Below are positions 30,650 to 51,120 of a stretch of DNA of 64,000 bases, in pieces. Positions within the stretch are counted from its first letter, which is position 1, and every line of letters starts with the position of its first letter. The stretch spans positions 7,316,001-7,380,000 of the forward strand of contig NZ_CP108488.1 of assembly GCF_035987325.1 (NCBI RefSeq), given 5' to 3'. The notes below the pieces were generated by a model, which saw only the letters and a program-made list of their open reading frames with translations, did not search any database and was not told the DNA's origin. The translations under genes and the position numbers were made by a program. Origin of the DNA: Streptomyces sp. NBC_01244 (GTDB taxonomy: Bacteria > Actinomycetota > Actinomycetes > Streptomycetales > Streptomycetaceae).

Positions 30650-32041
30650 CTAGCGGCCGCCGCCCTCCAGCAGGTTCCCCATCCACTCCTCGATGCCCGC
30701 CACCGTGCGCGGCAGGGCGCCCGACATCAGTCGGGCGCCCTCGGCCGTGATCACAAGGTCGTCCTCGATGCGGACGCCGATGCCGCGCAGCTCCGGCGGG
30801 AGGGTCTCGTCGTCGGGCTGGAGGTAGAGCCCCGGCTCCACGGTGAGGACCTGGCCCTCCTCCAGGACCCCGTCCAGGTACGTGTCCGCGCGCGCCTGCG
30901 CGCAGTCGTGCACGTCCAGCCCCAGCATGTGCCCGCTGCTGCACAGGGTGTAGCGCCGGTGCAGATCGCCCTCGGCGTGCTTGAGCACCCCCCACTCCGT
31001 GAGCCCCTCCGCGATCACCCGCATCCCGGCCCGGTGGAAGTCGCGGAAGCTCGCGCCCGGCCGCAGCGCCGCCATGCCCGCGTCCTGCGCGGCCAGGACC
31101 AGTTCGTACACCTGGCGCTGGACGGGGGAGAACCGGCCCGACAGCGGGAGGGTGCGGGTGACGTCCGCCGTGTAGAGGCCGTCGGTCTCCACGCCCGCGT
31201 CCATCAGGAGCAGATCGCTCGCGTTCAGCCGGCCGTCGTTGCGGATCCAGTGCAGCACGCAGGCGTGCGCGCCCGACGCGGCGATCGTCTCGTAGCCGGT
31301 GCCGTTGCCCTCGGCGCGGGCGCGGCGGTTGAAGACCCCCTCGATCCACCGCTCGCCGCGCGGGTGGGCCAGGGCGCGCGGGAGGTCCCGTACGACGTCC
31401 TCGAACCCGGCGGTGGTGTGGTCGACGGCGAGCTGCAGTTCGGCCACCTCCCAGGCGTCCTTGACCAGGCGCAGCTCGGAGAGGGCGACGGCCAGCTCCG
31501 GGTCCGCGGCGGCATTGCGTCCCGTCGGGGACCCCAGTGCGTCCAGGTGGGCGCAGCGGATGCCGGAGAGCCGCTCCGCCTCCGCGAGGTCGGGGCGGCG
31601 GCCGACCCAGAACTCCCCGTAGCGGCGGTCGCGGTAGAACTCCTCGTTGCCGCCGGTGCGCGGTGAGCGCGGGCGCAGGTAGAGGACGGCCTCGTGGCCG
31701 TGCGGGCCGGCCGGCTCCAGGACCAGGACGTGGCCGACTTGGTCCTCGCCGGTGAGCCCGGTCAGCCAGGCGTACGCGCTGTGCGGGCGGAAGCGGTAGT
31801 CGCAGTCGTGGCTGCGGACCTTCAGCTCGCCCGCGGGGATGATCAGCCGTTCCCCGGGGAAGCGCGCGGAGAGGCGTGCGCGGCGGGCCGGGGTGACGGC
31901 GTACGCGGGGACGCGTGCGGCGTCCGGCAGCGGTGAGGCCGCCCAGTCCGACGCCATGAAGCGTGACAACTCGGCTGATACCGGCAGGTCGTGACTGCCG
32001 ATGTTGAGCCCGGTGGTGGGGCGGGAGGGGGTGTCGGTCAC
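30650..32041 (-). CDS. pepP: Aminopeptidase P family protein (Xaa-Pro aminopeptidase, M24B)
   Basis: 463 residues. The N-terminal AMP_N domain (about 1-150, DYRFRPHSAYAWLTGLTGED) is followed by a pita-bread metallopeptidase: metal ligands in LLMDAGVETDGLYTADVTRT (two Asp), SSGHMLGLDVHD (His), LTVEPGLYL (Glu) and GIGVRIEDDLV (Glu). It removes residues N-terminal to proline or hydroxyproline. GTG start with GGGAG upstream. It is divergent from the collagenase gene and shares the 32-bp operator block with it, which ties it to collagen-peptide breakdown. Confidence 0.92.
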   Translation of the reverse strand: MTDTPSRPTTGLNIGSHDLPVSAELSRFMASDWAASPLPDAARVPAYAVTPARRARLSARFPGERLIIPAGELKVRSHDCDYRFRPHSAYAWLTGLTGEDQVGHVLVLEPAGPHGHEAVLYLRPRSPRTGGNEEFYRDRRYGEFWVGRRPDLAEAERLSGIRCAHLDALGSPTGRNAAADPELAVALSELRLVKDAWEVAELQLAVDHTTAGFEDVVRDLPRALAHPRGERWIEGVFNRRARAEGNGTGYETIAASGAHACVLHWIRNDGRLNASDLLLMDAGVETDGLYTADVTRTLPLSGRFSPVQRQVYELVLAAQDAGMAALRPGASFRDFHRAGMRVIAEGLTEWGVLKHAEGDLHRRYTLCSSGHMLGLDVHDCAQARADTYLDGVLEEGQVLTVEPGLYLQPDDETLPPELRGIGVRIEDDLVITAEGARLMSGALPRTVAGIEEWMGNLLEGGGR

Positions 32042-32083
32042 AGGGGCTCCCTCAAGAAGATGCGAACTGGTGGGCGCACAGGT

Positions 32084-32115
32084 CTTGTCAGTGCAATTTC
32101 ACATTACTATGTTAC
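32084..32115. promoter_or_regulatory. Shared operator site A (pepP / collagenase divergent promoter)
   Basis: The 18-mer AGTGCAATTTCACATTAC (32090-32107) plus its flanks form a 32-bp block that differs by one base from the block before the peptide transporter (43009-43040). The right part TTCACATTACTATGTTAC is an imperfect inverted repeat. It lies 43 bases upstream of pepP and 95 bases upstream of the collagenase start, so it can control both. Confidence 0.8.
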
Positions 32116-32210
32116 AGCTCACACCGCGCCCCGTTAATCCCCGCCAAACGCCGCGTGAAGCAGGGCAGTTCCGCACCTTTTCCTCACCGCCCCCCAGCCA
32201 GGAGTCCTTG

Positions 32211-34643
32211 GTGTCCCAGCACAGAGTCGTGCGCACGTCCCTCCTCTCCGCCGCCGTCGCGGTCACCCTCCTCGCCACGGCGGGCCAGGCCGTGACCCAG
32301 GCCGCGGAGACCGGTGCCCCGGCCGGCGCTCCGGCTGCCGCCGGGCCCGGCACCTTCGCCACCGGCACCTTCGCCACCGGCACCTTCGCCACCGGCGCCG
32401 CGGGCGCCGAGGCCGGTGCGAACCCGTTCGACGAGGTGGAGCACCTCGCCGACGCGCAGCAGGCCGCCCCCGCGGCTGCCCCGGCCCCGGGCGGCCAGAC
32501 GCCCGGCGGGCAGGCCGTCACCGAGGGCAAGGTACCCGGCGCCGCCACCGCGCCCGCCGCCGTGACCGCCACGAAGAGCGGCAGGCTCGCCGCCGCCGCC
32601 CAGGGCACCACCGCGGGCGTCCCCTGCACCCTCGACGGGATCACCGGGCTCACCCCGGAGCAGTTCGCCGACTTCCTCGCCGACCCGGCTGTCACCGCCG
32701 CCAAGGGCGGCTGTCTCTCCGGCCTCATCTGGACCTGGGACGCCCGCCTGGCCCCCGTCATGTCGGACGCCCACGTACAGGCCGTCTCCCGCCGGATATC
32801 CGGCCTGGCCGCCGCCCACGACGGCCTGAACTCCTCCCACCTGGAGGAGATGTTCACCTACCTGCACGCCGTGGCCTACCACGACCACTCCCGCGCCGAG
32901 ATCGACGTCACCGACGCCCCGACCGTCGAGGCCATGCGCCAGGCCATCGCCGCCTTCGCGGGCGCCGCCCGCAGCTTCGACGCCACCGCCTCCAACGCCC
33001 GCACCCTGCGCGAGGCCCTCTACGCCGGCAGCGCCCCGGGCCTGCGCCACCACCAGCTCGGCCTGATCAAGAACGTCCTGGCCACCATGGATCCGTCGCA
33101 CACCGCGACGCACCTGGACACCGCCTGGGCGGGCGCGGCGCTCGCCGCCCTCTCCGTCAACTACCTCGGCGTGTACAACAACGACACCGCGTTCCACTCG
33201 GCGGCCGCCGCCGACGCCCCGTACCGCGCCACCTTCAAGAACTTCGCGGCCTACGCCCACCTCAAGGGCACCGCGAACGCCTGGGTGGCCCGCGACGCCA
33301 TCGCCGAGTTCGGCCGCTTCGGCCAGATCGCGGGGCTGAAGGACGGGGTCACCGCCGACCTCGGCGCGCTCCTGGGCGCGGCCAGGGCCGCCTTCGGCGA
33401 CGGCAGCGAGCCGTGGGCGAAGGCCGTCTCCTGGCTCAACTTCTACCAGGCGTGCAAGCCGTACGGGGTGTGCAAGGAGGACATCGAGCGGGAGCTCTTC
33501 CCCCACACCTATACGTACGACAGCGGCGCCATCAAGGTCCGCACCGCCCTCGACCGGGCCACCGTCGACCAGCTCTACCACGCGAGCAAGCAGGTCAAGA
33601 CCCAGTACCACCGGGTCGTGGGCACCGACCAGCCGATCGCCGGGGACGCCAACGCCACCCTGAACATCGTGCTCTACGCCTCCCGCGCCGACTACGTGAA
33701 CTACCAGCCGCTCCTCACCGGCTACGGCACGAGCAACGGCGGCATGTACATCGAGAACGGCGCCACCTTCTACACCTACCAGCGCCGCGTCCCGCAGGAC
33801 TCCCAGCTCACCCTGGAAGAGCTCTTCCGCCACGAGTACACGCACTACCTCAACGGCCGCTTCGCCGTCCCCGGCACCTTCGGCCAGGGCGCCTGGTACC
33901 AGGGCGACCGTACGACCGCCATGGACGAGGGCACCGCCGAGTTCTTCGACGGCGCAACCCGCGACAACGGCATCGCCGTACGCAAGTCCCTGATCAAGAG
34001 CATCATCGCCGACACGGCCGGCGGCGGCCCGCGCATGTCCGTGGACCAGCTCCTGCACGCCACCTACGCCAACGACGGCTTCCGCTTCTACGGGTACTCC
34101 GGCGCGTTCTTCGAGTTCCTGTGGAACGAGCAGCCCTCGAAGCTGCGGGAGATGTACGGCTACCTGCGGGCCGACGACCCGGCGGGCTTCGACGCCTGGC
34201 GGAGCAGGATGGGCCGGGACGCGGCCGTCCAGACCGGCTACGACCGGTTCCTGGACGCCCAGATCGCCAAGGTCGACCAGCTGTTCGTGCCGAACACCTC
34301 CTTCACCCCGAACGCGCAACTGCGTGACGCGGCGCTCGCGGACGTGAAGTCCACGTTCGCGACGGCCACGTACAACACCCCGGACTGCGTGGAGAACGGC
34401 GAGCCGGGCAAGCGCCGGTTCACCTGCACCGGCAGGATCACGGCGAACCTGAAGGACTGGCGCAGCGAGGACCAGAACTTCAAGGACATGTCCGAGACGG
34501 TCGACTACTTCATCCTCGACCGGGCGGGCGCGGCCTCGAACAACCTGGCCGACATGAACTGCTCCTTCGGGGTGCTGGACATCTGGACCAACCGGGTGGC
34601 GGGAACGTCGAGTTACAGCTGTGAGGGTCCGCTGCGCGGCTGA
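32211..34643 (+). CDS. Secreted collagenase, peptidase family M9
   Basis: 810 residues from GTG 32211 (GGAG 6 bases upstream). Signal peptide MSQHRVVRTSLLSAAVAVTL. A low-complexity linker (GTFAT three times) is followed by the M9 activator domain (about 135-400, PCTLDGITGLTPEQFADFL) and the gluzincin peptidase: HEYTH at 541-545, then HYLNGRF, with the third zinc ligand Glu573 in MDEGTAEFFDG. It cuts triple-helical collagen. No PKD or typical collagen-binding domain is seen; the last 95 residues form a separate Cys-containing region (PDCVENG, FTCTGRI, MNCSFGVLDIW, YSCEG). Controlled from operator A. Confidence 0.92.
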   Translation: MSQHRVVRTSLLSAAVAVTLLATAGQAVTQAAETGAPAGAPAAAGPGTFATGTFATGTFATGAAGAEAGANPFDEVEHLADAQQAAPAAAPAPGGQTPGGQAVTEGKVPGAATAPAAVTATKSGRLAAAAQGTTAGVPCTLDGITGLTPEQFADFLADPAVTAAKGGCLSGLIWTWDARLAPVMSDAHVQAVSRRISGLAAAHDGLNSSHLEEMFTYLHAVAYHDHSRAEIDVTDAPTVEAMRQAIAAFAGAARSFDATASNARTLREALYAGSAPGLRHHQLGLIKNVLATMDPSHTATHLDTAWAGAALAALSVNYLGVYNNDTAFHSAAAADAPYRATFKNFAAYAHLKGTANAWVARDAIAEFGRFGQIAGLKDGVTADLGALLGAARAAFGDGSEPWAKAVSWLNFYQACKPYGVCKEDIERELFPHTYTYDSGAIKVRTALDRATVDQLYHASKQVKTQYHRVVGTDQPIAGDANATLNIVLYASRADYVNYQPLLTGYGTSNGGMYIENGATFYTYQRRVPQDSQLTLEELFRHEYTHYLNGRFAVPGTFGQGAWYQGDRTTAMDEGTAEFFDGATRDNGIAVRKSLIKSIIADTAGGGPRMSVDQLLHATYANDGFRFYGYSGAFFEFLWNEQPSKLREMYGYLRADDPAGFDAWRSRMGRDAAVQTGYDRFLDAQIAKVDQLFVPNTSFTPNAQLRDAALADVKSTFATATYNTPDCVENGEPGKRRFTCTGRITANLKDWRSEDQNFKDMSETVDYFILDRAGAASNNLADMNCSFGVLDIWTNRVAGTSSYSCEGPLRG

Positions 34644-34670
34644 CCTCGGCCGGTCCTGTTCCGTCTCAAA

Positions 34671-34688
34671 GAAATGTGACATATTACT
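34671..34688 (-). promoter_or_regulatory. Shared operator site C, overlapping the start region of the D-Hyp dehydrogenase gene
   Basis: Minus strand AGTAATATGTCACATTTC, matching the regulon consensus. It ends 3 bases before the GTG at 34692. TATTAC (34682-34687) within it could be a -10 element, which would make the mRNA leaderless and place the operator right on the promoter. Confidence 0.7.
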
Positions 34689-34691
34689 GTC

Positions 34692-35855
34692 GTGCCCAGA
34701 CAATCACCGGACCTCGTGATCATCGGCGCCGGCGTCGTCGGAGCCGCGTGCGCGTACTACGCGGCGCGCGCCGGACTCCGCGTGGCCGTCGTCGACCGCG
34801 GCCCGGTCGCCGGCGGCACCACCGGCGCCGGCGAAGGCAACCTGCTCGTCTCCGACAAGGAGGCCGGCCCCGAGCTCGAGCTCGCGCTGCTGTCGGCACG
34901 GCTCTGGCGCGAGCTCGCGCTCGAACTCCCGAGGGAGATCGAGTACGAGGCCAAGGGCGGCCTGGTCGTCGCCGCCGACGAGGCCACCGTGAAGGCCCTG
35001 CGGGGCTTCGCGGACGGCCAGCGCGCGGCCGGGGTCGACGCGGTCGAGGTGGGGCCGGGGGAGCTGCGCGAGCTGGAGCCCCACCTCGCTCCGGACCTGG
35101 CGGGCGGCTTCCTCTACCCGCAGGACGCACAGGTCCAGCCGGCTCAGGCGGCGGCGCGGCTGCTGGCCGCGGCGCCGGGTGTGGCGCCGGGTGTGGAGGT
35201 GTACCTCGGGGAGGAGGTCACGGAGCTCCTGCGGGGCCCCGCGGGCGAGCTGCGCGGCGTCCGTACGGCCCGCCGCGACCTCCTCGCCCCGGCGGTGCTC
35301 AACGCGGCCGGCACCTGGGGCGGAGCGGTGGCCGAACTGGCCGGAGTCGCCCTTCCGGTGCTGCCCCGGCGGGGGTTCGTCCTGGTGACGGAGCCGCTGT
35401 CGAGGGTGGTGCGGCACAAGGTCTACGCCGCGGACTACATCGCGGACGTGGCGAGCGGGTCGGCGTCGCTGCAGTCCTCGGCGGTGGTCGAGGGCACCCC
35501 GGCGGGGCCGGTCCTGATCGGCGCCACCCGCGAACGGGTCGGCTTCGACCGCTCGCTGTCGACGGAGGCGCTGCGCCGGCTGGCGGCGCAGGCGGCCGCC
35601 CTCTTCCCGGTCCTGGCGGACGTGCGCGTGCTGCGGACCTATCACGGCTTCCGCCCGTACCTGCCGGACCACCTCCCGGCGATCGGTCCGGACCCGCGGG
35701 TCCCGGGGTTGTTCCACGCCTGCGGCCACGAGGGCGCGGGCATCGGCCTGGCCCCGGGGACGGGTGCGCTGATCGCGGCGTTCCTGACGGGTGCGGCCCC
35801 CGCGCTGGACGCGGCTCCGTTCGCTCCGGCCCGCTTTGCGGGGGCCCCGCTGTGA
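34692..35855 (+). CDS. FAD-dependent D-amino acid (D-hydroxyproline) dehydrogenase, catalytic subunit (HcnC/LhpB-like)
   Basis: 387 residues, DAO superfamily. FAD site DLVIIGAGVVGAACAYYAARAG (about 7-28), GEGNLLVSDKEAGPEL, and the C-terminal RTYHGFRPYLPDHLPAIG then HACGHEGAGIGLAPGTG. Its electron-transfer partners are encoded at 36322 and 36638. I assign it to oxidation of cis-4-hydroxy-D-proline to pyrroline-4-hydroxy-2-carboxylate because of the epimerase and deaminase genes that follow; D-proline or other D-amino acids are alternatives. No Shine-Dalgarno upstream, so it is probably leaderless. Confidence 0.85.
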   Translation: MPRQSPDLVIIGAGVVGAACAYYAARAGLRVAVVDRGPVAGGTTGAGEGNLLVSDKEAGPELELALLSARLWRELALELPREIEYEAKGGLVVAADEATVKALRGFADGQRAAGVDAVEVGPGELRELEPHLAPDLAGGFLYPQDAQVQPAQAAARLLAAAPGVAPGVEVYLGEEVTELLRGPAGELRGVRTARRDLLAPAVLNAAGTWGGAVAELAGVALPVLPRRGFVLVTEPLSRVVRHKVYAADYIADVASGSASLQSSAVVEGTPAGPVLIGATRERVGFDRSLSTEALRRLAAQAAALFPVLADVRVLRTYHGFRPYLPDHLPAIGPDPRVPGLFHACGHEGAGIGLAPGTGALIAAFLTGAAPALDAAPFAPARFAGAPL

Positions 35856-36321
35856 CCGGGTGCGGCGCCGTTGCCGGGGACCGGTCCCCGGGCCCCTGCG
35901 CCTCAAACGCCGGCGGGGCTGGGGTGTGGCCGGCGGTCGGTCTGGCTGCGGGTGGGGGTCGGTGCCGGGGGCGGGGTGGGGTATCGGCCTGGACTGCATG
36001 ATTTAGGCGCCCTGTGTACTTCTTCGACAGTTGTGGGGTGTGCCTGCGCCACAAATCACGCTTTACGTCCCGGCCAACACCCCACCCCGCCCCCGTCCCC
36101 GACCGGGTATTTCAGCCGTCCGGCGTTTGAGGACCGGGGTCTGGGGCGGAGCCCCAGGGGGTCCGGGCGCAGCCCGGTGCCCCGGCTTTCAGCCCGTCCG
36201 GCGTTTGAGGACCGGGTCAGGGCCGGGCCCTGGGAACGGTGGAAGGGTGGGTAGGGGACTTCGCCCCGCAGGGGAACCGCAGTACGCGCACCGAGTCAGA
36301 GGAACGAGGAGGACGGAAGCG
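35856..36321. repeat. 466-bp intergenic region with three copies of a GTCCGGCGTTTGAGGAC-type element
   Basis: No gene is supported here. The core CCGGCGTTTGAGG occurs at 36120-36132 and 36198-36210 in longer near-identical contexts (TTCAGCC..GTCCGGCGTTTGAGGACCGGG), and inverted at 35901-35913. This resembles an intergenic repeat I recall from many Streptomyces genomes. No copy of the regulon operator was found here, so the two genes that follow may be read through or have another promoter. GAGGAGGACGGAAGC before 36322 is a ribosome site. Confidence 0.65.
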
Positions 36322-36657
36322 ATGAGCGAAGCCACGAGGGGCCGGCGAAGGTCGCCCCGCGACCTGGTGGGCGGGACCCCCGCCGAAACCTGGAGCCTCC
36401 GCTTCGACGGCCGTGAACTCCCGGCCCAGACCGGACAGAGCATCGCCGCCGTCCTCTGGTCCGCCGGCATCCTCGCCTGGCGCACCACCCGCGACACCGC
36501 CGCCCCCCGCGGAGCGTTCTGCGGGATCGGCAGCTGCTACGACTGCCTCGTCACCGTCAACGGCCGCCCGAACCAGCGTGCGTGCCTCGTCCCCGCCCGC
36601 CCGGGCGACCACGTCACCACCCAGGAAGGGACCGGCCATGACGACCTCGCCGTCTGA
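36322..36657 (+). CDS. (2Fe-2S)-binding subunit of the D-hydroxyproline dehydrogenase (HcnA-like)
   Basis: A 111-residue plant-type ferredoxin domain: FCGIGSCYDCLVTVNG then RAC gives the C-x5-C-x2-C-x11-C cluster ligands. It has the fold of the small HcnA/LhpE-type subunits that pass electrons from the DAO-type subunit. The 3' end overlaps the next gene by 20 bases, so the two are tightly coupled. It is separated from its presumed catalytic partner by the 466-bp repeat-bearing spacer. Confidence 0.85.
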   Translation: MSEATRGRRRSPRDLVGGTPAETWSLRFDGRELPAQTGQSIAAVLWSAGILAWRTTRDTAAPRGAFCGIGSCYDCLVTVNGRPNQRACLVPARPGDHVTTQEGTGHDDLAV

Positions 36658-38050
36658 CTCCCCGTCCGCCGCCGCCGACCTCGCCGTCGTCGGCGCCGGC
36701 CCGGCCGGCCTCGCCGCCGCGGTCACGGCCGCGGGCCTGGGCCTGCGGGTCATCCTGCTCGACGCGGGGGAGCGCCCCGGCGGGCAGTACTACCGCCACC
36801 CCGCGCCCGGACTCGGCGCGGCCCGCCCCGAGGCCCTGCACCACGGATGGTCCGCCTTCGCCTCGCGCGAAGCCGCCCTGCGCGCCCACGCATCGGCCGG
36901 CCGGATCACGTACCTGCCCTACCACCACGTCTGGACGGTCATCCCGGACCCCGATGGCGCTGCCTGGACCCTGCACGCCGTGGCGGGGGCCGACGAGGCC
37001 CCCGCCACGGTCCGGGCCCGTGCCGTCCTGCTCGCGACCGGTGCCTACGAGCGTCAGCTCCCCTTCCCCGGCTGGACCCTGCCCGGGGTCGTCGGGGCCG
37101 GCGGGGCGCAGGCCATGCTCAAGGGCGGGCTCGTGCTTCCGGGGAGCCGGGTCGTGGTCGCCGGGAGCGGGCCCCTGCTGCTCGCCGTGGCCGGCTCGCT
37201 CGCCTCCGCCGGAGCCCGGGTGCCTGTGGTCGTGGAGGCCGCCGCGTACAGCGGCTACGCGCACCACGTCCCCGCTCTGCTCCGCAATCCCGGGAAGCTC
37301 GCCGAAGGCGCCACGTACGGCGGGGCCCTGCTCCGCCACGGGGTGCGCCTGCTGACCCGGCACGCCGTCACCGAAGCCCACGGCACCGACCGGGTCGAGG
37401 CCGTCACGGTGGCCCGCCTCGACCGGGACTGGCGCCCGGTTCCCGGCACCGCCCGCCGCATCCCCTGCGACGCCGTGGCCGTGGGCCACGGGCTGGTGCC
37501 CCAGCTGGAGCTGGCCACCGGTCTGGGCTGCGCCACCCGTCCGAGCCCGGACGCCACCGTCGCCCTGGAACTGGACGCGGAGCAGCGCACCTCCGTCCCC
37601 GGGGTCTGGTCCGCCGGGGAGACCGGTGGCATCGGTGGCGCCCAACTGGCCCTGGCCGAGGGGGAGATCGCCGCCCATTCGGTTGCGGGCCGGCCGGTGC
37701 CGGCGCGCCTGGTCCGCACCCGTACGAGGCTGCGCGCGTTCGCCGCCGCGATGGCCGGTGCCCACCGCCCGGGCTCCGGCTGGACCGGCTGGCTGCGCGA
37801 GGACACCGACGTGTGCCGCTGCGAGGAGGTCCCGGCGGGCCGAATCCGGGAGGCCGTCGAAGACCTGGGGGCGCGGGACGCCCGTACGGTCAAGCTCCTC
37901 ACCCGGGCCGGGATGGGCTGGTGTCAGGGCCGGATGTGCGGCCCGGCCGTCGCCGCACTCGCCGGGACCGACCCGGCCCCCGACCGCAGGCCGCTGTCCT
38001 GCCCGGTTCCTCTCCGGCACCTCGCCGAACTTCCCGCCGAACTTCCCTGA
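36638..38050 (+). CDS. FAD/NAD(P)-dependent oxidoreductase subunit of the D-hydroxyproline dehydrogenase (HcnB-like)
   Basis: 470 residues. Two dinucleotide folds: DLAVVGAGPAGLAAAVTAAG (about 14-33) and VVVAGSGPLLLAVAGSLASA (about 170-189). GERPGGQYYRH and the ATGAYERQLPFPGWTLPGV block are shared with HcnB and opine-oxidase subunits. The C-terminus has a BFD-like [2Fe-2S] site: CRCEEV ... GMGWCQGRMCG. It completes the three-part dehydrogenase with the 36322 and 34692 products. Electron acceptor is probably the respiratory chain. Confidence 0.87.
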   Translation: MTTSPSDSPSAAADLAVVGAGPAGLAAAVTAAGLGLRVILLDAGERPGGQYYRHPAPGLGAARPEALHHGWSAFASREAALRAHASAGRITYLPYHHVWTVIPDPDGAAWTLHAVAGADEAPATVRARAVLLATGAYERQLPFPGWTLPGVVGAGGAQAMLKGGLVLPGSRVVVAGSGPLLLAVAGSLASAGARVPVVVEAAAYSGYAHHVPALLRNPGKLAEGATYGGALLRHGVRLLTRHAVTEAHGTDRVEAVTVARLDRDWRPVPGTARRIPCDAVAVGHGLVPQLELATGLGCATRPSPDATVALELDAEQRTSVPGVWSAGETGGIGGAQLALAEGEIAAHSVAGRPVPARLVRTRTRLRAFAAAMAGAHRPGSGWTGWLREDTDVCRCEEVPAGRIREAVEDLGARDARTVKLLTRAGMGWCQGRMCGPAVAALAGTDPAPDRRPLSCPVPLRHLAELPAELP

Positions 38051-38101
38051 CGGGTCCGCCGACAGGGCGGCCGCACCTCTTGTGGCCACGTCACACCCAC
38101 T

Positions 38102-38119
38102 AGTAAAATGTCACACATC
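38102..38119 (+). promoter_or_regulatory. Shared operator site D
   Basis: AGTAAAATGTCACACATC, 18 bases upstream of the deaminase start at 38138 and upstream of its ribosome site. Matches the consensus AGTAnAATGTCACATTnC at most positions. Confidence 0.7.
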
Positions 38120-42105: not shown

Positions 42106-42123
42106 GCAACGTGACATTGTACG
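42106..42123 (-). promoter_or_regulatory. Shared operator site E, upstream of the GntR regulator
   Basis: Minus strand CGTACAATGTCACGTTGC, 14 of 18 identical to site B. It lies 47 bases before the regulator ATG and after the reductase stop, so it could give the regulator its own autoregulated promoter. Confidence 0.7.
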
Positions 42124-43008: not shown

Positions 43009-43040
43009 CTTGTCAGTACAATTTCACATTACTATGTTAC
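43009..43040 (+). promoter_or_regulatory. Shared operator site B, upstream of the peptide transporter
   Basis: The 18-mer AGTACAATTTCACATTAC (43015-43032) inside a 32-bp block identical at 31 positions to operator A. It ends 40 bases before the binding-protein ATG. A 10-bp direct repeat GGGTCCAACC (about 42988 and 42998) precedes it. Confidence 0.8.
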
Positions 43041-43080: not shown

Positions 43081-44826
43081 ATGACCAAGCGCACCCAACT
43101 CGCCCTCGCCACCGCCCTGGTGGCCGCACTCGCACTCGGCGCCTCGGGCTGCTCCGACCCCAAGAAGGGCTCCGCCGCAGGTGCCGGGGCCTCCAACCCC
43201 GCCTCCGCCAACGACGGGAAGATCCTCGGCGGCGCGCCCGTCAAGGGCGGCACCCTCACCGTCCTGTCCAACCAGGACTTCGCCCACCTCGACCCCGCCC
43301 GCAACTGGGTCATGCCGACCATGGACTTCGGCACCCGCCTCCTCTACCGCACCCTGGTCACCTTCAAGGCCGAGCCGGGCAAGGCCGGCAGCGAGCTCGT
43401 CCCCGACCTCGCCACCGACCTCGGCACCTCCTCCAACGGCGGCCGCACCTGGACCTTCACCCTGAAGGAGGGCGTGAAGTACGAGGACGGCTCGCCCATC
43501 AAGGCGCAGGACATCAAGTACAACGTCGAGCGCTCGATGGCACCCGACCTCACGGGCGGCCCCGACTACGCCGCCCAGTACCTCGCCGGTACCGAGGGCT
43601 ACAAGGGCCCGCTCCAGGGCAAGCACCTCGACTCCGTCAAGACCCCCGACGACCGCACGATCGTCTTCGAACTGAAGCGTCCCGTCGCCGAGTTCTCCGC
43701 GACCGCGACCCTCCCCACCTTCGCCCCGGTCCCGGAGTCCCAGGAGAAGGGCACGCAGTACGACGCCCGCCCGTTCTCCTCCGGCCCGTACAAGATCGAG
43801 TCGTACGACCGCGACAAGAAGCTGGTCCTGGTCCGCAACGAGCACTGGGACGCCAAGACCGACACCGTCCGCAAGGCCTATCCCGACAAGTTCGTGGTCG
43901 TCATGGGTCTCAAGGGCGGCCAGATCGACGACCGGATCATCGCCGGGGAGGGCGCCGACGCCTCCTCCGTCCAGTGGTCCGACATGCGGCCCGAGAGCGC
44001 CCCCAAGGTGCTGCCCAAGCCGGAGATCAAGTCGCGGCTGCTGGCCGAGTCCCAGGGCTGTACCGAGATGCTCCACCTCAACAACTCGCGCGCCCCCTTC
44101 AACGACCCCAAGGTCCGCGATGCCATCCAGTACGCCGTGGACAAGGAGGCCGTGATCACCGCGGGCGGCGGACCGGCCCTCAACGAGATCGCCACCGCCT
44201 ACCTGCCCCCGGCCATGTCCGGCGGCAAGCAGGCCGACACCCTCAAGATCGCCCCGTCCGGGGACCCCGCCAAGGCCAAGGAACTCCTCAAGGCGGCCGG
44301 CAAGGAGACCCTGAAGGTCTCGCTCGCCGTCTCCACCGGCGACAAGGGCAAGGCGGAGGCCCTCCAGCAGGGCCTCGCCCGTGCCGGCGTCGAGGTCGTC
44401 ATCGACACGGTCGACCCGGGCGCCTACTACGACGTCATCGGCGACCTCTCCACCACCCCCGACATGTCGCTCGCCGGCTGGTGCCCCGACTACCCGTCCG
44501 GCTCCACCTGGATCCCCTTCGTCTTCGACGGGCGCACCATCAAGGACAAGGGCAACCAGGGCAACAACGCCCAGTTCCGCGACGACGCCACGATGAAGCG
44601 GATCGACGAGATCAACGCCATGGCCGACGCCAAGCAGGCCAACCAGGCCTGGATCGACCTCGACGCCGAGATCATGAAGAAGTCCCCGGCCATCCCCCTC
44701 CTGCTGGAGCGCAAGCCGCTGCTCGTCGGCACCAACATCGCCGGCGCCTTCGGCCACCCCGTCTGGGTCGGCCAGATCGACTACGCCACCGTCGGCCTCA
44801 AGGACCCTTCGAAGAGCCAGGGCTGA
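43081..44826 (+). CDS. Peptide/dipeptide ABC transporter substrate-binding lipoprotein
   Basis: 581 residues, SBP family 5. Lipoprotein signal MTKRTQLALATALVAALALG with Cys24 (GASGCSD). Family blocks: LVPDLATDLGTSSNGGRTWTF, TFTLKEGVKYEDGSPIKAQD, and NNSRAPFNDPKVRDAIQYAVDK. It captures oligopeptides at the membrane surface. It begins a five-gene operon and is controlled from operator B, suggesting that collagen-derived peptides are the cargo. Confidence 0.92.
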   Translation: MTKRTQLALATALVAALALGASGCSDPKKGSAAGAGASNPASANDGKILGGAPVKGGTLTVLSNQDFAHLDPARNWVMPTMDFGTRLLYRTLVTFKAEPGKAGSELVPDLATDLGTSSNGGRTWTFTLKEGVKYEDGSPIKAQDIKYNVERSMAPDLTGGPDYAAQYLAGTEGYKGPLQGKHLDSVKTPDDRTIVFELKRPVAEFSATATLPTFAPVPESQEKGTQYDARPFSSGPYKIESYDRDKKLVLVRNEHWDAKTDTVRKAYPDKFVVVMGLKGGQIDDRIIAGEGADASSVQWSDMRPESAPKVLPKPEIKSRLLAESQGCTEMLHLNNSRAPFNDPKVRDAIQYAVDKEAVITAGGGPALNEIATAYLPPAMSGGKQADTLKIAPSGDPAKAKELLKAAGKETLKVSLAVSTGDKGKAEALQQGLARAGVEVVIDTVDPGAYYDVIGDLSTTPDMSLAGWCPDYPSGSTWIPFVFDGRTIKDKGNQGNNAQFRDDATMKRIDEINAMADAKQANQAWIDLDAEIMKKSPAIPLLLERKPLLVGTNIAGAFGHPVWVGQIDYATVGLKDPSKSQG

Positions 44827-44848
44827 GGACGCGAGGGCCCCTGACACC

Positions 44849-45832
44849 ATGACCACCACCGCACCGGGCGCCGCCGGACCGGGCGCCGCCCGTCCGGCAG
44901 CCCCGGACGGCGCACCGGCCGGGGCCGTCCCCCCGGGCAGCAGCCCCTGGCAGCTCGCCCGGCGGGAACTCCGCCGCCGCCCCGCCGTCCGCGTCAGCCT
45001 CTGCGTCGTCCTGCTCTTCGTCCTGATGGCCGCCACCGCCCCCTGGCTGGGCGCGCTGGGCGGCTGGTCCCCGGACGAGTTCGACAAGTCCGCCATCGAC
45101 CCCTACCTCGGCGGCCAGCCGCTGGGCTCCTTCGGCGGGATCAGCCCCGAGCACTGGCTCGGCGTGGAACCCGTCAGCGGCCGCGACCTGTTCGCCCGCG
45201 TCGTCCACGGAGCCCAGGTCTCGCTCCTCATCGCCTTCGCGGCCACCGCCATCGTGGTCGTGACGGGCACCGCCGCCGGAATCGCCGCCGGCTACTTCGG
45301 TGGCCGCACCGACGCCGTCCTGTCCCGGCTGATGGACCTGACGATGTCCTTCCCGTCCCTCATCTTCATGATCGCGATGCTGTCGGTGGCCAAGGACGTC
45401 AACCGCATCGTCCTCATGACCGTCGTCATCGGCGTCTTCGGCTGGCCCGGTGTCGCCCGCGTCGTCCGCGGCCAGGCCCTCTCCCTCAAACACCGCGAGT
45501 ACGTGGACGCCGCCCGCGTCGGCGGGTCGAGCTCCTGGCGGATCCTGACCCGCGACATCCTCCCAGGGGTCTCCGGCCCGGTGATCGCCTACACCACCCT
45601 GCTCATCCCCGGCATGATCAGCACCGAGGCCGCGCTCAGCTACCTCGGCGTCGGCGTGCGCCCGCCGACCCCCTCCTGGGGCCAGATGATCGCCGAGTCC
45701 GTGGCCTTCTACGAGACCGACCCCATGTACTTCGTCATCCCCAGCCTCTTCCTCTTCCTCGCGGTCCTCGCCTTCACCCTGCTCGGCGACGCCCTGCGCG
45801 ACATCCTCGACCCGAGGGGCGGCCGGACGTGA
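44849..45832 (+). CDS. Peptide ABC transporter permease (DppC-like)
   Basis: 327 residues. An N-terminal cytoplasmic Pro/Ala leader and one TM segment, an extracellular loop with the OppC N-domain, then the permease core with EYVDAARVGGSSSWRILTRDILPG as the coupling segment and five TM helices. DppC-type order. The stop overlaps the next permease start (GTGA). No separate regulatory signal. Confidence 0.9.
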   Translation: MTTTAPGAAGPGAARPAAPDGAPAGAVPPGSSPWQLARRELRRRPAVRVSLCVVLLFVLMAATAPWLGALGGWSPDEFDKSAIDPYLGGQPLGSFGGISPEHWLGVEPVSGRDLFARVVHGAQVSLLIAFAATAIVVVTGTAAGIAAGYFGGRTDAVLSRLMDLTMSFPSLIFMIAMLSVAKDVNRIVLMTVVIGVFGWPGVARVVRGQALSLKHREYVDAARVGGSSSWRILTRDILPGVSGPVIAYTTLLIPGMISTEAALSYLGVGVRPPTPSWGQMIAESVAFYETDPMYFVIPSLFLFLAVLAFTLLGDALRDILDPRGGRT

Positions 45833-46815
45833 TCCTCTACCTCGCGCGCCGGCTGCTCGCCCTCGCCGGCGTCCTCCTGGCCATCGCCGCCGTCACCTTC
45901 CTCATCTTCTACGTGCTCCCCTCCGACCCGGCCGCGGCCGCCTGCGGCAAGACCTGCAGCGCCGAGCGGCTGGCCGACGTACGCGCGTACCTCGGCCTGG
46001 ACCGGCCGCTGTGGCGGCAGTTCGGCGAGTTCCTCACCGGGATCTTCACCGGACGCACCCTCGGCACCGGCCAGTACGCCGTCCAGTGCGACTTCCCCTG
46101 CCTGGGCTACTCCTACGAGAACTCCCTGCCGGTATGGGACCTGCTGATGGACCGGCTCCCGGTCTCCGCCTCCCTCGCGGTCGGCGCCGCCGCCCTCTGG
46201 CTCGTCCTGGGGCTCGGCGCGGGAGTCACCGCCGCCCTGCGCAAGGACACGGTCACGGACAAGGTCCTCATGGTCGGCGCGGTCGCCGCCGCCTCCCTGC
46301 CCGTGTACTTCACCTCCGTGATGCTCATCTACGGAGTCATCCGGATCGCCGGGCTCCTGCCCTACCCCGCCTACCAGGCCTTCACCGACAACCCCCTGGC
46401 CTGGGCGAGCAACCTGCTCCTGCCCTGGACCGCGCTCGCCCTGCTCTACGCCGCCATGTACGCCCGCCAGAGCCGCGGTTCGATGATCGAGGCGATGGCC
46501 GAGCCGTACATCCGTACCGCCCGCGCCAAGGGAATGCCCGAGCGCACCGTCGTGGTCAAACACGGACTGCGCTCCGGGATGACCCCGATCCTCACCATCT
46601 TCGGCATGGACCTCGGCGGCCTGCTCGCCGGAGCCGTCATCACCGAGTCCATCTTCGGACTCCCGGGCATCGGGCGGCTGTTCTACGGGGCCCTGGTCAG
46701 CTCGGACCAGCCCGTCGTGCTCGGGGTCACCCTGCTGGCCGCCTTCTTCATCGTCGTCGCGAACCTCGCCGTCGACCTCCTGTACGCCGTCATCGACCCG
46801 AGGGTGAGGTATTGA
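45829..46815 (+). CDS. Peptide ABC transporter permease (DppB-like)
   Basis: 328 residues, about six TM helices. Typical DppB start (LARRLLALAGVLLAIAAVTF), the coupling segment YIRTARAKGMPERTVVVKHG, and the DLGGLLAGAVITESIFGLPG block. A Cys pair in the extracellular loop (AACGKTCSAE and QCDFPCLGY) is unusual for the family and may form disulfides. Start GTG overlaps the previous gene; stop touches the next ATG by one base. Confidence 0.92.
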   Translation: MILYLARRLLALAGVLLAIAAVTFLIFYVLPSDPAAAACGKTCSAERLADVRAYLGLDRPLWRQFGEFLTGIFTGRTLGTGQYAVQCDFPCLGYSYENSLPVWDLLMDRLPVSASLAVGAAALWLVLGLGAGVTAALRKDTVTDKVLMVGAVAAASLPVYFTSVMLIYGVIRIAGLLPYPAYQAFTDNPLAWASNLLLPWTALALLYAAMYARQSRGSMIEAMAEPYIRTARAKGMPERTVVVKHGLRSGMTPILTIFGMDLGGLLAGAVITESIFGLPGIGRLFYGALVSSDQPVVLGVTLLAAFFIVVANLAVDLLYAVIDPRVRY

Positions 46816-47852
46816 TGGCTCCTCCTCCCGAAGCACCCGAAGCGCCCGAAGCCCCTTTGCTTCAAGTACGCGACCTGCAGGTCACGTTCAGCACGCCGCG
46901 CGGCACCGTGCGCGCCGTCGACTCCCTCGGCTTCACCGTCGAGGCCGGCCGCACGCTCGGCATCGTCGGCGAGTCCGGCTCGGGCAAGTCCGTCACCTCC
47001 CTCGCCGTCATGGGCCTGCACCGGGGCGCCGAGATCGGCGGCTCCATCGCCCTCGACGGGCAGGAGCTGACCACCAAGTCCGAGAAGGAGCTCTCCAAGC
47101 TGCGCGGCCGCAAGATGGCCATGATCTTCCAGGACCCGCTGTCCAGCCTGCACCCGTACTACACGGTCGGCGAGCAGATCGCCGAGCACTTCCGGGTCCA
47201 CTTCCGGGCCGGCCGGGCGGCCGCGAAACGGCGCGCCGTCGACATGCTCGGCGAGGTGGGCATCCCCGAACCCGCCCGCCGGGCGGGGGAGTACCCGCAC
47301 CAGTTCTCCGGCGGCATGCGCCAGCGCGCGATGATCGCCATGGCGCTGGCCTGCGAACCCGACCTGCTGATCGCCGACGAGCCCACCACCGCCCTCGACG
47401 TCACCGTGCAGGCGCAGATCCTGGAGCTGATCGCCGGGCTCCAGCAGGAGCGCGGACTCGGCGTCGTCATGATCACCCACGATCTGGGCGTGGTCGCCCG
47501 GGTCGCCCACGAGGTACTCGTCATGTACGGCGGCCGGGCCGCCGAACAGGCCCCGGTGGACGACCTGTTCGCCGACCCGGCGCACCCCTACACCCGGGGG
47601 CTCCTCGACTCCCTCCCTCGGCTGGACGACGCCGACGACGAGCCGCTGCGGGCCATCCCCGGCTCCCCGCCCTCCCTGCTCGCCCCGGCCCCGGGATGCG
47701 CCTTCGCCCCGCGCTGCCCCGTGGCCGCCGCGGCCGAGGACGCGGACCGCGAGCGCTGCGCCACGGTGCGGCCCGCACTGCGCCCCTACGGCGACGCCGG
47801 CCGCGAGTCCGCCTGCCACTTCGCGGGCGCCGTCCGGGAGGTGACCCGATGA
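46815..47852 (+). CDS. Peptide ABC transporter ATP-binding protein (DppD-like)
   Basis: 345 residues. Walker A GESGSGKS (about 54), signature [15 protein letters not shown], Walker [13 protein letters not shown], and the C-terminal oligo_HPY extension with the cysteine motif [15 protein letters not shown]. The N-terminal APEAPEAPL run comes from a short repeat. Pairs with the next ATPase; overlap ATGA with it. Confidence 0.93.
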
Positions 47853-48874
47853 CCACGACGAACCAGCCGGACACCGGCGCCGACCGGGTCCCGGCGGCCC
47901 GCGGCGGGACCCCTCCGCCGCTGCTGCGGGTGCGCGACCTGACGATGTCCTTCCCCGGCAAACGGACCGCGACCGGGCGCCGGGGGGCGCCCGTGCGCGC
48001 CGTCGACGGAGTCTCCTTCGACCTGGAGGCCGGCCGGACCCTGGGCCTCGTGGGCGAATCGGGCTGCGGCAAGTCCACCACCGGGCGGATGCTGGTCCGG
48101 CTGCTGGAACCGACCTCCGGAAGCGTCGAGTTCGACGGCAAGGACATCAGCCGGCTCTCCCAGGGCGCCCTGCGGCCCCTGCGGCGGAACCTCCAGATGG
48201 TCTTCCAGGACCCGCACTCCTCCCTCAACCCCCGCCAGACGGTGGCCCGGATCATCTCCGACCCACTGCTGGTGCAGGGTTCGAGCGCGGCGGACGCCCG
48301 CCGCCGGGCCGCCGAACTGATGGAGCTCGTCGGACTGATCCCGGAGCACATCGACCGCTATCCGCACGAGTTCTCCGGCGGTCAGGCGCAGCGCATCGGC
48401 ATCGCCCGGTCGCTCGCCACCAGCCCCCGGCTGATCATCGCCGACGAACCGGTCTCGGCGCTCGACGTCTCCGTACAGGCACAGATCGTCAACCTGATGG
48501 AGCGGCTGCGCGCCGAACTGGGCCTGGCCTACGTGTTCATCGCGCACGACCTCTCGGTCGTCAAACGGGTCAGCGACCGGGTCGCGGTCATGTACCTCGG
48601 CCGGATCGTGGAAATGGGCGACAAGAAGTCGCTCTACGAGAACCCCCAGCACCCTTACACCAGGGCGCTGTTGTCCGCCGTTCCGCTGCCCGACCCGGCG
48701 GCTGAGCGGCGGCGCGAGCGGATCGTGCTGCTCGGCGACCCGCCGAGTCCGGCCGCCCCGCCCCCCGGCTGCACCTTCCACCCCAGGTGCCCGGTGGCGC
48801 AGGAGATCTGCCGCACCGAACGGCCGCTGCTGCGGACGGTCGCCTCCCGTGAGGTGGCCTGCCACATGGCGTAG
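47849..48874 (+). CDS. Peptide ABC transporter ATP-binding protein (DppF-like)
   Basis: 341 residues. Walker A GESGCGKST, signature FSGGQAQRIGIARSL, Walker B LIIADEPVSALD, and the oligo_HPY tail CTFHPRCPVAQEICRTERP. Last gene of the operon; a 17-bp-stem terminator follows 36 bases after the stop. Confidence 0.93.
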   Translation: MTTTNQPDTGADRVPAARGGTPPPLLRVRDLTMSFPGKRTATGRRGAPVRAVDGVSFDLEAGRTLGLVGESGCGKSTTGRMLVRLLEPTSGSVEFDGKDISRLSQGALRPLRRNLQMVFQDPHSSLNPRQTVARIISDPLLVQGSSAADARRRAAELMELVGLIPEHIDRYPHEFSGGQAQRIGIARSLATSPRLIIADEPVSALDVSVQAQIVNLMERLRAELGLAYVFIAHDLSVVKRVSDRVAVMYLGRIVEMGDKKSLYENPQHPYTRALLSAVPLPDPAAERRRERIVLLGDPPSPAAPPPGCTFHPRCPVAQEICRTERPLLRTVASREVACHMA

Positions 48875-48910
48875 CCGCGGCCCGGGGGACCGGCGGGGAA
48901 CCCGGGCACG

Positions 48911-48951
48911 GGGAGGGCCCCGGAGCGATGATCTCGCTCCGGGGCCCTCCC
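48911..48951. terminator. Strong bidirectional terminator after the peptide transporter operon
   Basis: Perfect 17-bp stem GGGAGGGCCCCGGAGCG / CGCTCCGGGGCCCTCCC with a 7-base loop (48928-48934). It separates the operon from the convergent S9 peptidase gene. Confidence 0.85.
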
Positions 48952-48959
48952 GTCGTTCC

Positions 48960-48989
48960 GGTGGCGGTGGCGGTGGCGGTGGCGGTGGC
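48960..48989. repeat. GGTGGC hexanucleotide repeat, 5 copies
   Basis: Five perfect GGTGGC units between the terminator and the S9 peptidase stop, in non-coding DNA. Confidence 0.9.
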
Positions 48990-49032
48990 GGCCCGGCTCG
49001 GCCCGGCTCGGGGGCCGGGCCACCGCCACGCC

Positions 49033-51120
49033 TCAGACCAGGCCCAGCTCCTTGCGGAAGAACTCCAGCTCCAGCGCCATGACCTTCTCCCGTACCCCGC
49101 CCGGAGTCATGTGCGTGACGCCCGGCAGCGCGAGGAGCTGGTGGGGGCGGCCCGCGTCGGTCAGGGCCTGCGAGAGCCGCAGGGTGTGCGAGGGGTGGAC
49201 GTTGTCGTCGGCCAGCCCGGTGACCAGCAGCAGCGGCCGGCGCAGCCCCGCCGCGTCGGAGAGCAGGCTGTCCCGCTCGTACACCTCCGGGTGCGCCTGG
49301 GGCAGCCCCAGGTACCGCTCGGTGTACGCCGTGTCGTACTGCCGGAAGTCGGTCGGCGCGGCCCCGGCCGCCGCCGCGTGGAAGACGTCCGGGCGGCGCA
49401 GCACCGCGAGCGCGGACAGGTACCCGCCGTACGACCAGCCGCGGATGCCCACCCGGGTCAGGTCGAGGTCGGCGTGGCGCGCGCCGAGCGCCTGGAGGGC
49501 GGCGACCTGGTCCTCCAGGGTGACCTCGGAGAAGCCCCGGTACATGGCGTGGGTGAACCGCGGCGAGACGTGCGCGGTGCCGCGGTTGTCGACGGTGACC
49601 ACGGCGAAGCCCTGGTCGGCCCACCACTGCCGGTGCTGCCAGCGGCGCGGCTCGGCGCTGACGTCCTGCATGCCGGGGCCGCCGTAGCTGTCCATCAGGA
49701 CGGGCAGCCGCGTGCCGGGGACGTGCCCGCGCGGCAGCACCAGGGCGGTGGGCACCCCGTGCTCGGTGACCCGCTCCAGCACCGGGACCACCCGGTACGG
49801 CAGTGGCTGCGACAGGTCGCCGGGGACGAACTCTCTCCCGTCGGCGGTCCGCAGGACGCGCCGGATCCCGTCGGCGTCGGCGGAGGTCAGCAGCAGGATC
49901 CCGGCCGCGGCCTGGACGGTGTGCACCCCGGGCCCGTCCGCGAGCGGGGTCACCTCGCCCGTGTCCGGGTCCAGCAGGAGCACCTGCTGCTCGGCGGGGT
50001 CGCGCCGCCCGGCCTCGATCAGCAGCCGGTTCCCGTGGGTGCCGGCCACCCTGCGGACCTGGAGCCCGTCTCCGGTGAGCAGTACGCCGTCCAGCGCGAG
50101 CGCGCGGGCCGCCCCGCCGGGGGTGTCGGCCGAGGTGAGCATCCGGCCGTCGGCCAGGCGTGCCGGGGTGCCGGGGAGCATGGGGTCCACCCACTGGGGG
50201 TGCGTGGTGCGCGACAGCTCCCGGGTGCGCCCGGTGTCCGGGTCGGCGGAGAGCAGCAGGACGTTCTGCTGGAGCCGGTCCCGCACGGTGAGCAGGATCT
50301 CGGCGGGAGAGTCCCACTCCGCGTCGGAGACGTACGGGTAGGTCTCGGTGTCCCAGTCGAGCCGCACCGCGGCGTCCGGGCCCGGTCCGATCACCCAGAA
50401 CCGCACGTCGGCGTTGGGGCCGCCCGCCTCGGGGTAGGCGAAGTCCTGGGCCGGCAGTTCCGGGTGCGCCGGGTCGGCGAACCAGCGCCGCTGGAGGGCG
50501 GATTCGTCGACGCGGGCGGCCAGCAGGCGCTCCCCGTCGGGGGACCACCAGTGCCCCCGGTGCCGGTCGAGCTCCTCGGCGGCGGCGAACTCCGAGACGC
50601 CCCAGCGGGCTCCGTCGTCGGGGCTGATCCGGCCGCCGGGGACGGTGTGGAGGGCGTCGCCGGTGACGTAGGCGATGCGCGAGGCATCGGGGCTCGGGCG
50701 CGGGTCGAAGACGGGCCCGGCGGTGGGGAGTTCCTTGGGCTGCGCGGGCGTTCCGGCATCGGCCGCGCGGGTGACTTCGTAGAGGCGCCCGTAGAGGGCG
50801 AACACCGCGGTGAGCCCGTCGGCGGAGAGGGCGTAGGAGCCGATCCCGGCGGCGACGAGGCGCGAGCGCTCGCGCAGCCGGCGCTCGACGACGGGGAGGG
50901 GCGCGGGCTCCGGGGACAGTTCGCGGGGGTCGGCGAGCCGGGTTTCGGTGCCGGTGGCGGTGTCCAGGACCCAGAGGCTGTCGAAGGGATCGGTGGGGCC
51001 GGTGGAGCGGAGGAACCAGAGGAGCCTGCCTTCGTCGCCGAAGGAGAAGGCGCGCGGGGCGCCGTAGGTGAACCGGGCCGTGCTCGCGGAGAGCCTGAGG
51101 AAGTCATCCATGCGATCCAT
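49033..51120 (-). CDS. S9-family prolyl oligopeptidase, dipeptidyl peptidase IV-like
   Basis: 695 residues without a signal peptide, so intracellular. An N-terminal beta-propeller (about 1-430) precedes an alpha/beta-hydrolase domain: catalytic Ser in GIRGWSYGGYLSA (about 560), Asp in VTGLADDNVHPSHT, His in LPGVTHMTPGG. Glu-rich EFAAAEELDRHRGHWWSPDG resembles the DPP-IV N-terminal-binding segment. It would remove X-Pro dipeptides from imported collagen peptides. ATG 51120; a second ATG 9 bases later is possible. Operator F lies 12 bases upstream. Confidence 0.9.
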   Translation of the reverse strand: MDRMDDFLRLSASTARFTYGAPRAFSFGDEGRLLWFLRSTGPTDPFDSLWVLDTATGTETRLADPRELSPEPAPLPVVERRLRERSRLVAAGIGSYALSADGLTAVFALYGRLYEVTRAADAGTPAQPKELPTAGPVFDPRPSPDASRIAYVTGDALHTVPGGRISPDDGARWGVSEFAAAEELDRHRGHWWSPDGERLLAARVDESALQRRWFADPAHPELPAQDFAYPEAGGPNADVRFWVIGPGPDAAVRLDWDTETYPYVSDAEWDSPAEILLTVRDRLQQNVLLLSADPDTGRTRELSRTTHPQWVDPMLPGTPARLADGRMLTSADTPGGAARALALDGVLLTGDGLQVRRVAGTHGNRLLIEAGRRDPAEQQVLLLDPDTGEVTPLADGPGVHTVQAAAGILLLTSADADGIRRVLRTADGREFVPGDLSQPLPYRVVPVLERVTEHGVPTALVLPRGHVPGTRLPVLMDSYGGPGMQDVSAEPRRWQHRQWWADQGFAVVTVDNRGTAHVSPRFTHAMYRGFSEVTLEDQVAALQALGARHADLDLTRVGIRGWSYGGYLSALAVLRRPDVFHAAAAGAAPTDFRQYDTAYTERYLGLPQAHPEVYERDSLLSDAAGLRRPLLLVTGLADDNVHPSHTLRLSQALTDAGRPHQLLALPGVTHMTPGGVREKVMALELEFFRKELGLV

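Follow-up and report, generated by a model that had tools for sequence, protein, structure and literature searches.

A predicted HypR regulon gathering collagenase, peptide uptake and hydroxyproline catabolism genes in Streptomyces sp. NBC_01244

In Streptomyces sp. NBC_01244, genes for an M9-family collagenase, two further peptidases, an oligopeptide importer and enzymes of hydroxyproline (Hyp) breakdown adjoin a gene for a GntR-family regulator, HypR. This block was analyzed within a stretch of 64,000 nucleotides (C1:7316001-7380000 of the 10.0-Mb genome; hereafter, the window). The block is a real and conserved cluster. Its promoters carry sequences resembling the HypR-binding sites of Streptomyces coelicolor, and it very probably represents a physically consolidated and enlarged form of the Streptomyces HypR regulon. 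A preliminary description of the window had proposed that these genes form one regulon; as a prediction, this idea is supported by the HypR-site-like boxes at the block promoters, which are conserved in relatives. For this strain we infer all activities, the transport specificity, HypR binding, co-induction and the ligand.

Gene content of the block

The reading frames of the window were scanned against Pfam and NCBIfam, and the gene families named in the preliminary description were all recovered at or very near the places it had assigned to them. The block comprises the following genes:

30650-32041, minus strand: M24 aminopeptidase P-like protein (AmpP) with M24 and AMP_N domains (PF00557, 160 bits; PF05195, 59 bits)
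32211-34643, plus strand: M9 peptidase of the collagenase family, ColA (PF01752, 161 bits; PF08453, 34 bits)
34692-35855, plus strand: LhpB-like FAD subunit (DAO) of a predicted D-hydroxyproline dehydrogenase (PF01266, 235 bits)
36322-36657, plus strand: LhpF-like [2Fe-2S] subunit (Fer2_4; PF13510, 85 bits)
36638-38050, plus strand: LhpE-like FAD/BFD subunit (Pyr_redox_2 and Fer2_BFD; PF07992, 93 bits; PF04324, 42 bits)
38138-39067, plus strand: protein of the dihydrodipicolinate synthase (DHDPS) superfamily, predicted pyrroline-4-hydroxy-2-carboxylate (Pyr4H2C) deaminase (LhpC-like, dapA-type; PF00701, 156 bits)
39108-40112, plus strand: Rac1, predicted 4-hydroxyproline 2-epimerase of the proline racemase family (343.0 bits with the NCBIfam equivalog PRK13971, below the cut-off of 376)
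40109-41140, plus strand: Rac2, second proline-racemase-family protein, dehydratase-like overall, whose second catalytic position is Cys (DRSPCGSG)
41137-42096, plus strand: ornithine cyclodeaminase (OCD) family protein, similar to pyrroline-2-carboxylate (Pyr2C) reductases (PRK06141, 211 bits vs a cut-off of 322)
42171-42881, plus strand: HypR, GntR family, FadR subfamily, with GntR helix-turn-helix (PF00392, 53 bits) and FCD (PF07729, 86 bits) domains
43081-48874, plus strand: five-gene oligopeptide ATP-binding cassette (ABC) importer as a whole, with its parts assigned by family scan
43081-44826, plus strand: importer binding protein (SBP_bac_5)
44849-45832 and 45829-46815, plus strand: two importer permeases
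46815-47852 and 47849-48874, plus strand: two importer ATPases
49033-51120, minus strand: S9 prolyl-oligopeptidase or dipeptidyl peptidase IV (DPP-IV)-like peptidase (PF00326, 156 bits; PF00930, 90 bits)

The open reading frame of the M9 gene begins at 32001, and its likely start, judged by eye, is the GTG codon at 32211, followed by a signal-peptide-like stretch. The protein has the Peptidase_M9 domain with the HExxH...E arrangement of M9 collagenases: the catalytic motif HEYTH at 33831 is followed by a downstream glutamate, and HExxH is kept in 51 of 51 orthologues. The aminopeptidase P-like enzyme is predicted to cut X-Pro and X-Hyp peptides. The DAO, [2Fe-2S] and FAD/BFD subunits are encoded in tandem, as in LhpBEF (PF01266, PF13510, and PF07992 with PF04324), and dehydrogenase activity is predicted. 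The DHDPS-type protein, at 146, falls short of the cut-off of 206 for the dapA equivalog, and the Rac1 motifs MCGHGT and DRSPCGTGT, which hold a Cys/Cys pair, were both found in 68 of 68 orthologues. Among the matches listed, the second ATPase (PRK11308 subfamily) was the only block protein that passed a curated NCBIfam cut-off, so the specific activities of the block rest on family membership, gene order and S. coelicolor genetics. On the basis of family membership, the block genes are predicted to cover the path up to alpha-ketoglutarate semialdehyde (KGSA), as the preliminary description had stated.

HypR and its predicted boxes

The closest PDB relatives of the window regulator are 3fms and 3sxy, which we take to be TM0439-type proteins of the HypR paper. 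All 14 of the DNA-contact, metal-site and ligand-site residues named in PMC6608401 are present in it, with a shift of +1. Kotowska et al. (2019) reported, from electrophoretic mobility shift assays (EMSA), promoter reporters and a knockout, that the targets bound and repressed by S. coelicolor HypR (SCO6294) include hypR itself, the operon SCO6289-6293, the M9 collagenase gene SCO5912 and kgd (SCO5281) (PMC6608401). L-Hyp induces the S. coelicolor reporters, and growth on L-Hyp is lost when the epimerase gene SCO6293 is deleted (PMC6608401). Zinc binding is a further trait of the S. coelicolor-type regulator.

The seven EMSA-positive S. coelicolor sites alone were used to build a matrix, with which the window was scanned on both strands. 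The seven top-scoring matches all lie at block promoters (42111 for hypR, 32092 for collagenase/AmpP, 43017 for the importer, 38104 for dapA and 34676 for lhpB, with second boxes at 43030 and 32105):

32085-32115, plus strand: predicted collagenase promoter (TTGTCA-N17-TATGTT), which the divergent aminopeptidase P gene shares as its upstream region
32092-32102, plus strand: box TGCAATTTCAC in the collagenase promoter, score 17.1
32105-32115, plus strand: second box in the collagenase promoter, TACTATGTTAC, score 12.3
34676 (within 34670-34686), minus strand: box TAATATGTCAC upstream of lhpB, score 12.1
38104-38114, plus strand: box TAAAATGTCAC upstream of the dapA-type gene, score 16.1, overlapping a possible -10 element
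42111-42121, minus strand: box TACAATGTCAC upstream of hypR, score 19.5, the best of the window
43010-43040, plus strand: predicted importer promoter (TTGTCA-N17-TATGTT) with two boxes
43017-43027, plus strand: box TACAATTTCAC in the importer promoter, score 16.1
43030-43040, plus strand: second box in the importer promoter, TACTATGTTAC, score 12.3
51131-51147, strand not assigned: weak HypR-like boxes in the gap between the DPP-IV-like gene and a divergent major facilitator superfamily (MFS) gene, scores 10.1 and 9.7

The S. coelicolor hypR promoter contains exactly the same site as the box upstream of the window hypR (PMC6608401). The collagenase and importer promoters have a 32-bp stretch in common, with one mismatch, in which a box is placed between TTGTCA (predicted -35) and TATGTT (predicted -10). 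The best scores at the six block promoters sum to 91.1, and 200 column-permuted matrices reached at most 54.6.

Conservation in relatives

The HypR protein was used as the query against a genome collection, and the block was compared with the best 80 of the 330 loci obtained. The full set of 15 genes (ColA through DPP) is held by 25 of these 80 loci, which are close relatives and thus non-independent, some of them being cut by contig ends. A window-type M9 gene was present in 51 loci, LhpE in 57 and both in 47, while the GntR gene stood alone in seven. The clustering is therefore not due to chance, given the 25 loci with the full set and the 47 with both ColA and LhpE. Gene order varies; in Streptomyces fildesensis (L091) it is lhp operon, hypR, AmpP, importer and collagenase.

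Boxes were scored in 280-bp upstream regions with a threshold of at least 12, which was set after the lhpB score was known. They were found upstream of the GntR gene in 80 of 80 cases, DapA in 63 of 64, LhpB in 52 of 55 and the importer binding protein in 35 of 36, as well as upstream of AmpP (26/26), ColA (45/46), DPP (17/18) and the divergent MFS gene (17/23), where the AmpP/ColA and DPP/MFS regions overlap if the genes are divergent. The 11-mer TACAATGTCAC itself precedes the GntR gene in 79 of the 80 relatives. Internal genes rarely had such boxes: Rac1 0/67, Rac2 0/45, OCD 0/51, LhpE 1/53, LhpF 1/53 and acyl-CoA dehydrogenase (ACAD) 0/8, and, within the importer, OppC 0/35, OppB 0/35, OppD 0/34 and OppF 0/33.

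Along with the late choice of threshold, the relatedness of the loci and the overlapping regions, several findings weigh against a HypR regulon that spans the block or limit the picture of it. Two EMSA-negative S. coelicolor sites score 14.8 and 17.1, and the seven EMSA-positive ones at least 18.5; the block boxes other than that of hypR (19.5) score 12.1-17.1, below all EMSA-positive sites, and those of the DPP-IV-like gene about 10. The boxes upstream of lhpB (12.1) and M9 (17.1) are kept in relatives, but one EMSA-negative site scores at least as high as either. Score alone does not establish HypR binding, and since EMSA-negative sites score as high as the block boxes other than that of hypR, conservation rather than score carries most weight. 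At three S. coelicolor sites bound by HypR, the promoter was inactive or unaffected by hypR deletion (PMC6608401). A plain count of window matches with up to two mismatches revealed no enrichment (13 vs 16.1 expected). A loosened motif had 19 exact matches in the genome, three in the block, seven in an identical repeated sequence and nine elsewhere, six of the latter inside predicted coding frames. The score of the window DPP-IV region, with its weak box and an upstream region common with the MFS gene, was equalled by 17 of 200 permuted matrices. Family scans found no KGSA dehydrogenase among the block proteins, and sites of at least 12 occur at 2 of the 29 aldehyde dehydrogenase (ALDH) loci of the genome, neither of them directly upstream of the ALDH start. 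The local M9 protein lacks C-terminal PKD or PPC domains of the kind seen in SCO5912, its domain scan giving only M9 and M9_N.

Part of this evidence would fit an arrangement of physical neighbours only, in which HypR controls the lhp operon and hypR while the protease, importer and peptidases are under other control. The ColA and importer boxes do fall within the score range of the two EMSA-negative sites, plain match counts are at chance level, and the DPP-IV box of the window is weak. Such an explanation nevertheless appears improbable in view of the element common to the ColA and importer promoters, with a box between the predicted -35 and -10 in each, kept in 45/46 and 35/36 relatives, and of the boxes carried by M9 genes distant from lhp. 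The scores of the EMSA-negative sites make the consolidated HypR regulon, and the genus-wide switch considered below, somewhat less probable and the neighbours-only arrangement somewhat more so.

A pattern derived from the block sites, AATKTSACATT, is circular with respect to the block and was not used as support. It occurs at 20 distinct places in the genome, four in the block and one upstream of the second M9 gene.

Predicted operation of the regulon

When collagen breakdown products are lacking, HypR would sit on the collagenase/AmpP, lhpB, dapA, hypR and importer promoters, and perhaps also on that of the DPP-IV-like gene, and repress them. The secreted M9 enzyme would release peptides for uptake by the importer, and the aminopeptidase P and DPP-IV-like enzymes could help to release Pro and Hyp. 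The epimerase would then produce cis-4-D-Hyp, to be oxidized by LhpBEF, and the DapA-type enzyme would form KGSA. Conversion of the latter to 2-oxoglutarate could be performed by an aldehyde dehydrogenase encoded outside the block. A Hyp-derived metabolite would free HypR from DNA, providing feedback from the product to the protease; as releasing ligands, L-Hyp, D-Hyp and Pro were without effect in S. coelicolor.

No gene could be singled out as a KGSA dehydrogenase candidate by either a family cut-off or a HypR-like box. The 18 aldehyde dehydrogenases scanned, of the 29 matches in the genome, included none above the cut-off of NF042993 or NF052305 (KGSA/dioxovalerate dehydrogenase) among profile matches under E 1e-135; three of them reach about 350 bits vs 770. 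The two sites at ALDH loci score 12.3 (L130, about 600 nt upstream of an ExaC-type gene) and 12.5 (L148), and neither was judged promoter-like. A Pannonibacter plasmid region sought as a reference had no annotated KGSA dehydrogenase. The dehydrogenase of the proline branch, acting on pyrroline-5-carboxylate (P5C), is encoded elsewhere in the genome (TIGR01236, 789 bits, cut-off 613.6).

M9 genes across Streptomyces

Linkage was surveyed in 121 Streptomyces genomes, of which 91 have an lhpE-type gene, with matches accepted down to 46% identity, and 73 have an M9 gene. After exclusion of three M9 rows below the family cut-off, 32 of the 94 M9 genes have an lhpE-type gene no more than 20 kb away, with about 0.5 expected (chance about 0.5% each); genes on different contigs were counted as unlinked, so that some linkage may be missed where assemblies are fragmented. 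Most of the linked cases involve the closer lhpE matches (26/35 at 66% identity or more, 6/57 below). When M9 genes are divided into two score classes of our own (about 140-180 and >330 bits), 23 of 38 in the class of the window gene are linked and 9 of 56 in the other.

Boxes were sought upstream of 22 M9 genes, in the 420 or 350 nt that precede the first codon, aligned or predicted. The set included all nine linked high-score genes, 11 unlinked genes picked by hand, and therefore non-random, from the 56 unlinked in lhpE-bearing genomes, and both further M9 genes of strain NBC_01244; 22 other linked low-score regions lie outside it. A box of at least 12 was present in 22 of 22 regions, while the reversed matrix gave 2 of 22 and 40 permuted matrices a mean of 0.7 and a maximum of 4. 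Two genomes of this set (L163 and L164) combine the lhp operon, Rac2, OCD, hypR, AmpP and the importer with an M9 gene of the other class in a different order, AmpP in L163 being a short match only. In 3 of the 11 unlinked regions (L165, L169 and L170), a HypR-like GntR gene (66-81% identity) adjoins the collagenase gene and the lhpE-type gene is far away. The boxes at unlinked M9 genes, the differing orders and the HypR-like genes beside M9 suggest that HypR control stays constant while clustering varies.

These data make it moderately probable that HypR is a genus-wide collagen switch of Streptomyces, with a single repressor, released by a catabolite of Hyp, acting on essentially every M9 collagenase gene of either score class, whether close to the lhp operon or distant from it, as well as on AmpP, an oligopeptide importer and a DPP-IV-like peptidase. 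The targets would have been clustered more than once, in differing orders. A one-species regulon would then become a testable genus-wide rule, according to which collagenase secretion is switched by the cell's own breakdown of Hyp. The block also provides a candidate for the import of collagen peptides and a regulatory route to collagenase production, and offers a case of regulon members scattered in some species and clustered in others.

Substrates of the collagenase

Further M9 genes of this genome were found at C1:9130868-9131734 (L001) and C1:505475-506356 (L002), with upstream HypR-like boxes scoring 15.7 and 12.7/12.3, respectively.

The block could serve the scavenging of gelatin, proline or protein in general rather than of native collagen, with Hyp partly derived from plant cell-wall proteins. 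Consistent with this, the local M9 protein is devoid of PKD and PPC and, where the sequences align, shares about 24% identity with the other two M9 proteins encoded in the genome, one of which has PKD and PPC and the other PPC only; Hyp also occurs in plant and algal walls (PMC6608401). Such a role is unlikely, since M9 genes from both score classes are repeatedly found next to lhpE and a box precedes all 22 M9 genes scanned, including the domain-bearing one at C1:9130868. On the HypR-regulon reading, the lack of PKD and PPC and the low identity make it doubtful that the local M9 enzyme is the main attacker of native collagen, and the other two may do much of this work.

The second proline racemase-like protein

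Rac2 and the OCD-like protein might form a branch for trans-3-Hyp, consisting of a dehydratase and a Pyr2C reductase, so that the block would handle both Hyp isomers. The best NCBIfam score of Rac2 is with the 3-Hyp dehydratase family NF045511, yet its 258 bits are far below the cut-off of 540. Its best PDB scores are with 6r76, for which the alignment shows Thr at the second position, and with 7qpo, a 3-Hyp dehydratase; the OCD protein scores best with Pyr2C reductases. The Thr expected at the second catalytic position of trans-3-Hyp dehydratases according to PMC4113996 is absent from Rac2, which has Cys instead: DRSPCGSGT was found in 45 of 45 orthologues, with the first-Cys motif matched in 41 of 45, and DRSPCGSG also in three of three distant orthologues. 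A dehydratase role of Rac2 is doubtful because of this Cys. As catalytic residues alone can mislead in the proline racemase family (PMC4113996), the 3-Hyp branch is conceivable, though less likely than not. A dehydratase-like sequence with a conserved Cys may also point to an activity not yet assigned within this family.

Comparison with known systems

The preliminary description had considered the linkage of collagenolysis to Hyp catabolism undescribed in an actinomycete. For the regulatory linkage this is incorrect, since it has been published for S. coelicolor (PMC6608401), and novelty in the form claimed is ruled out by this work together with PMC7883544 and PMC5343134. As to the physical part of the claim, literature searches, which covered few subscription papers, found no report of an actinomycete cluster with aminopeptidase P, a peptide importer and a DPP-IV-like gene. 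The side-by-side clustering and the wider gene set under predicted HypR control look new.

The S. coelicolor regulon is alike in its GntR/FadR-type regulator, judged by residues, the site before hypR, the order of lhp genes (B, F, E, dapA, epimerase) and an M9 collagenase under the repressor (PMC6608401). It differs in that SCO5912 and SCO6289-6293 have distant locus numbers, while here the corresponding genes adjoin. Its annotated regulon (Table 2 of PMC6608401) is without the aminopeptidase P, DPP-IV and peptide importer genes found in the block; HypR also bound sites at SCO5911, 5315, 7176/7177 and 7273. One site is listed there for the operon, whereas here dapA has its own box (PMC6608401).

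A Colwellia BB5 cluster of about 21 kb likewise encodes an M9 collagenase, an aminopeptidase, a Hyp epimerase, a dehydrogenase, a deaminase and an OCD-like protein, but it belongs to a gammaproteobacterium and has TonB and MFS uptake, a cyclophilin and a PutR regulator (PMC7883544). Proteobacterial HypR regulons were predicted to take in collagenases, a peptide permease and proline peptidases, AmpP among them; they are from Alteromonadales (mostly Shewanella) and Aeromonas, involve other genes and another transporter, and are known as predictions only (PMC5343134). Neighbourhoods of the proline racemase superfamily include 4HypE, an FAD dehydrogenase, a DHDPS-type deaminase and an OCD-type reductase, and Streptomyces lividans grows on trans-4-Hyp; the word "collagen" does not occur in the main text of that paper (PMC4113996).

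Other features of the window

A PaaX-type regulator gene adjoins a gene for a benzoate-CoA-ligase-like AMP-binding enzyme at 25742-29582, with a divergent acyl-CoA dehydrogenase gene. The product of 55050-55871 has a Scabin-like domain (PF22596, 137 bits), and its neighbour is an Excalibur-domain protein. The sequence CCGGCGTTTGAGGA occurs twice in the gap between lhpB and lhpF (36120-36133 and 36198-36211); genome-wide it has 121 copies (51 forward and 70 reverse), and read backwards it has 0.

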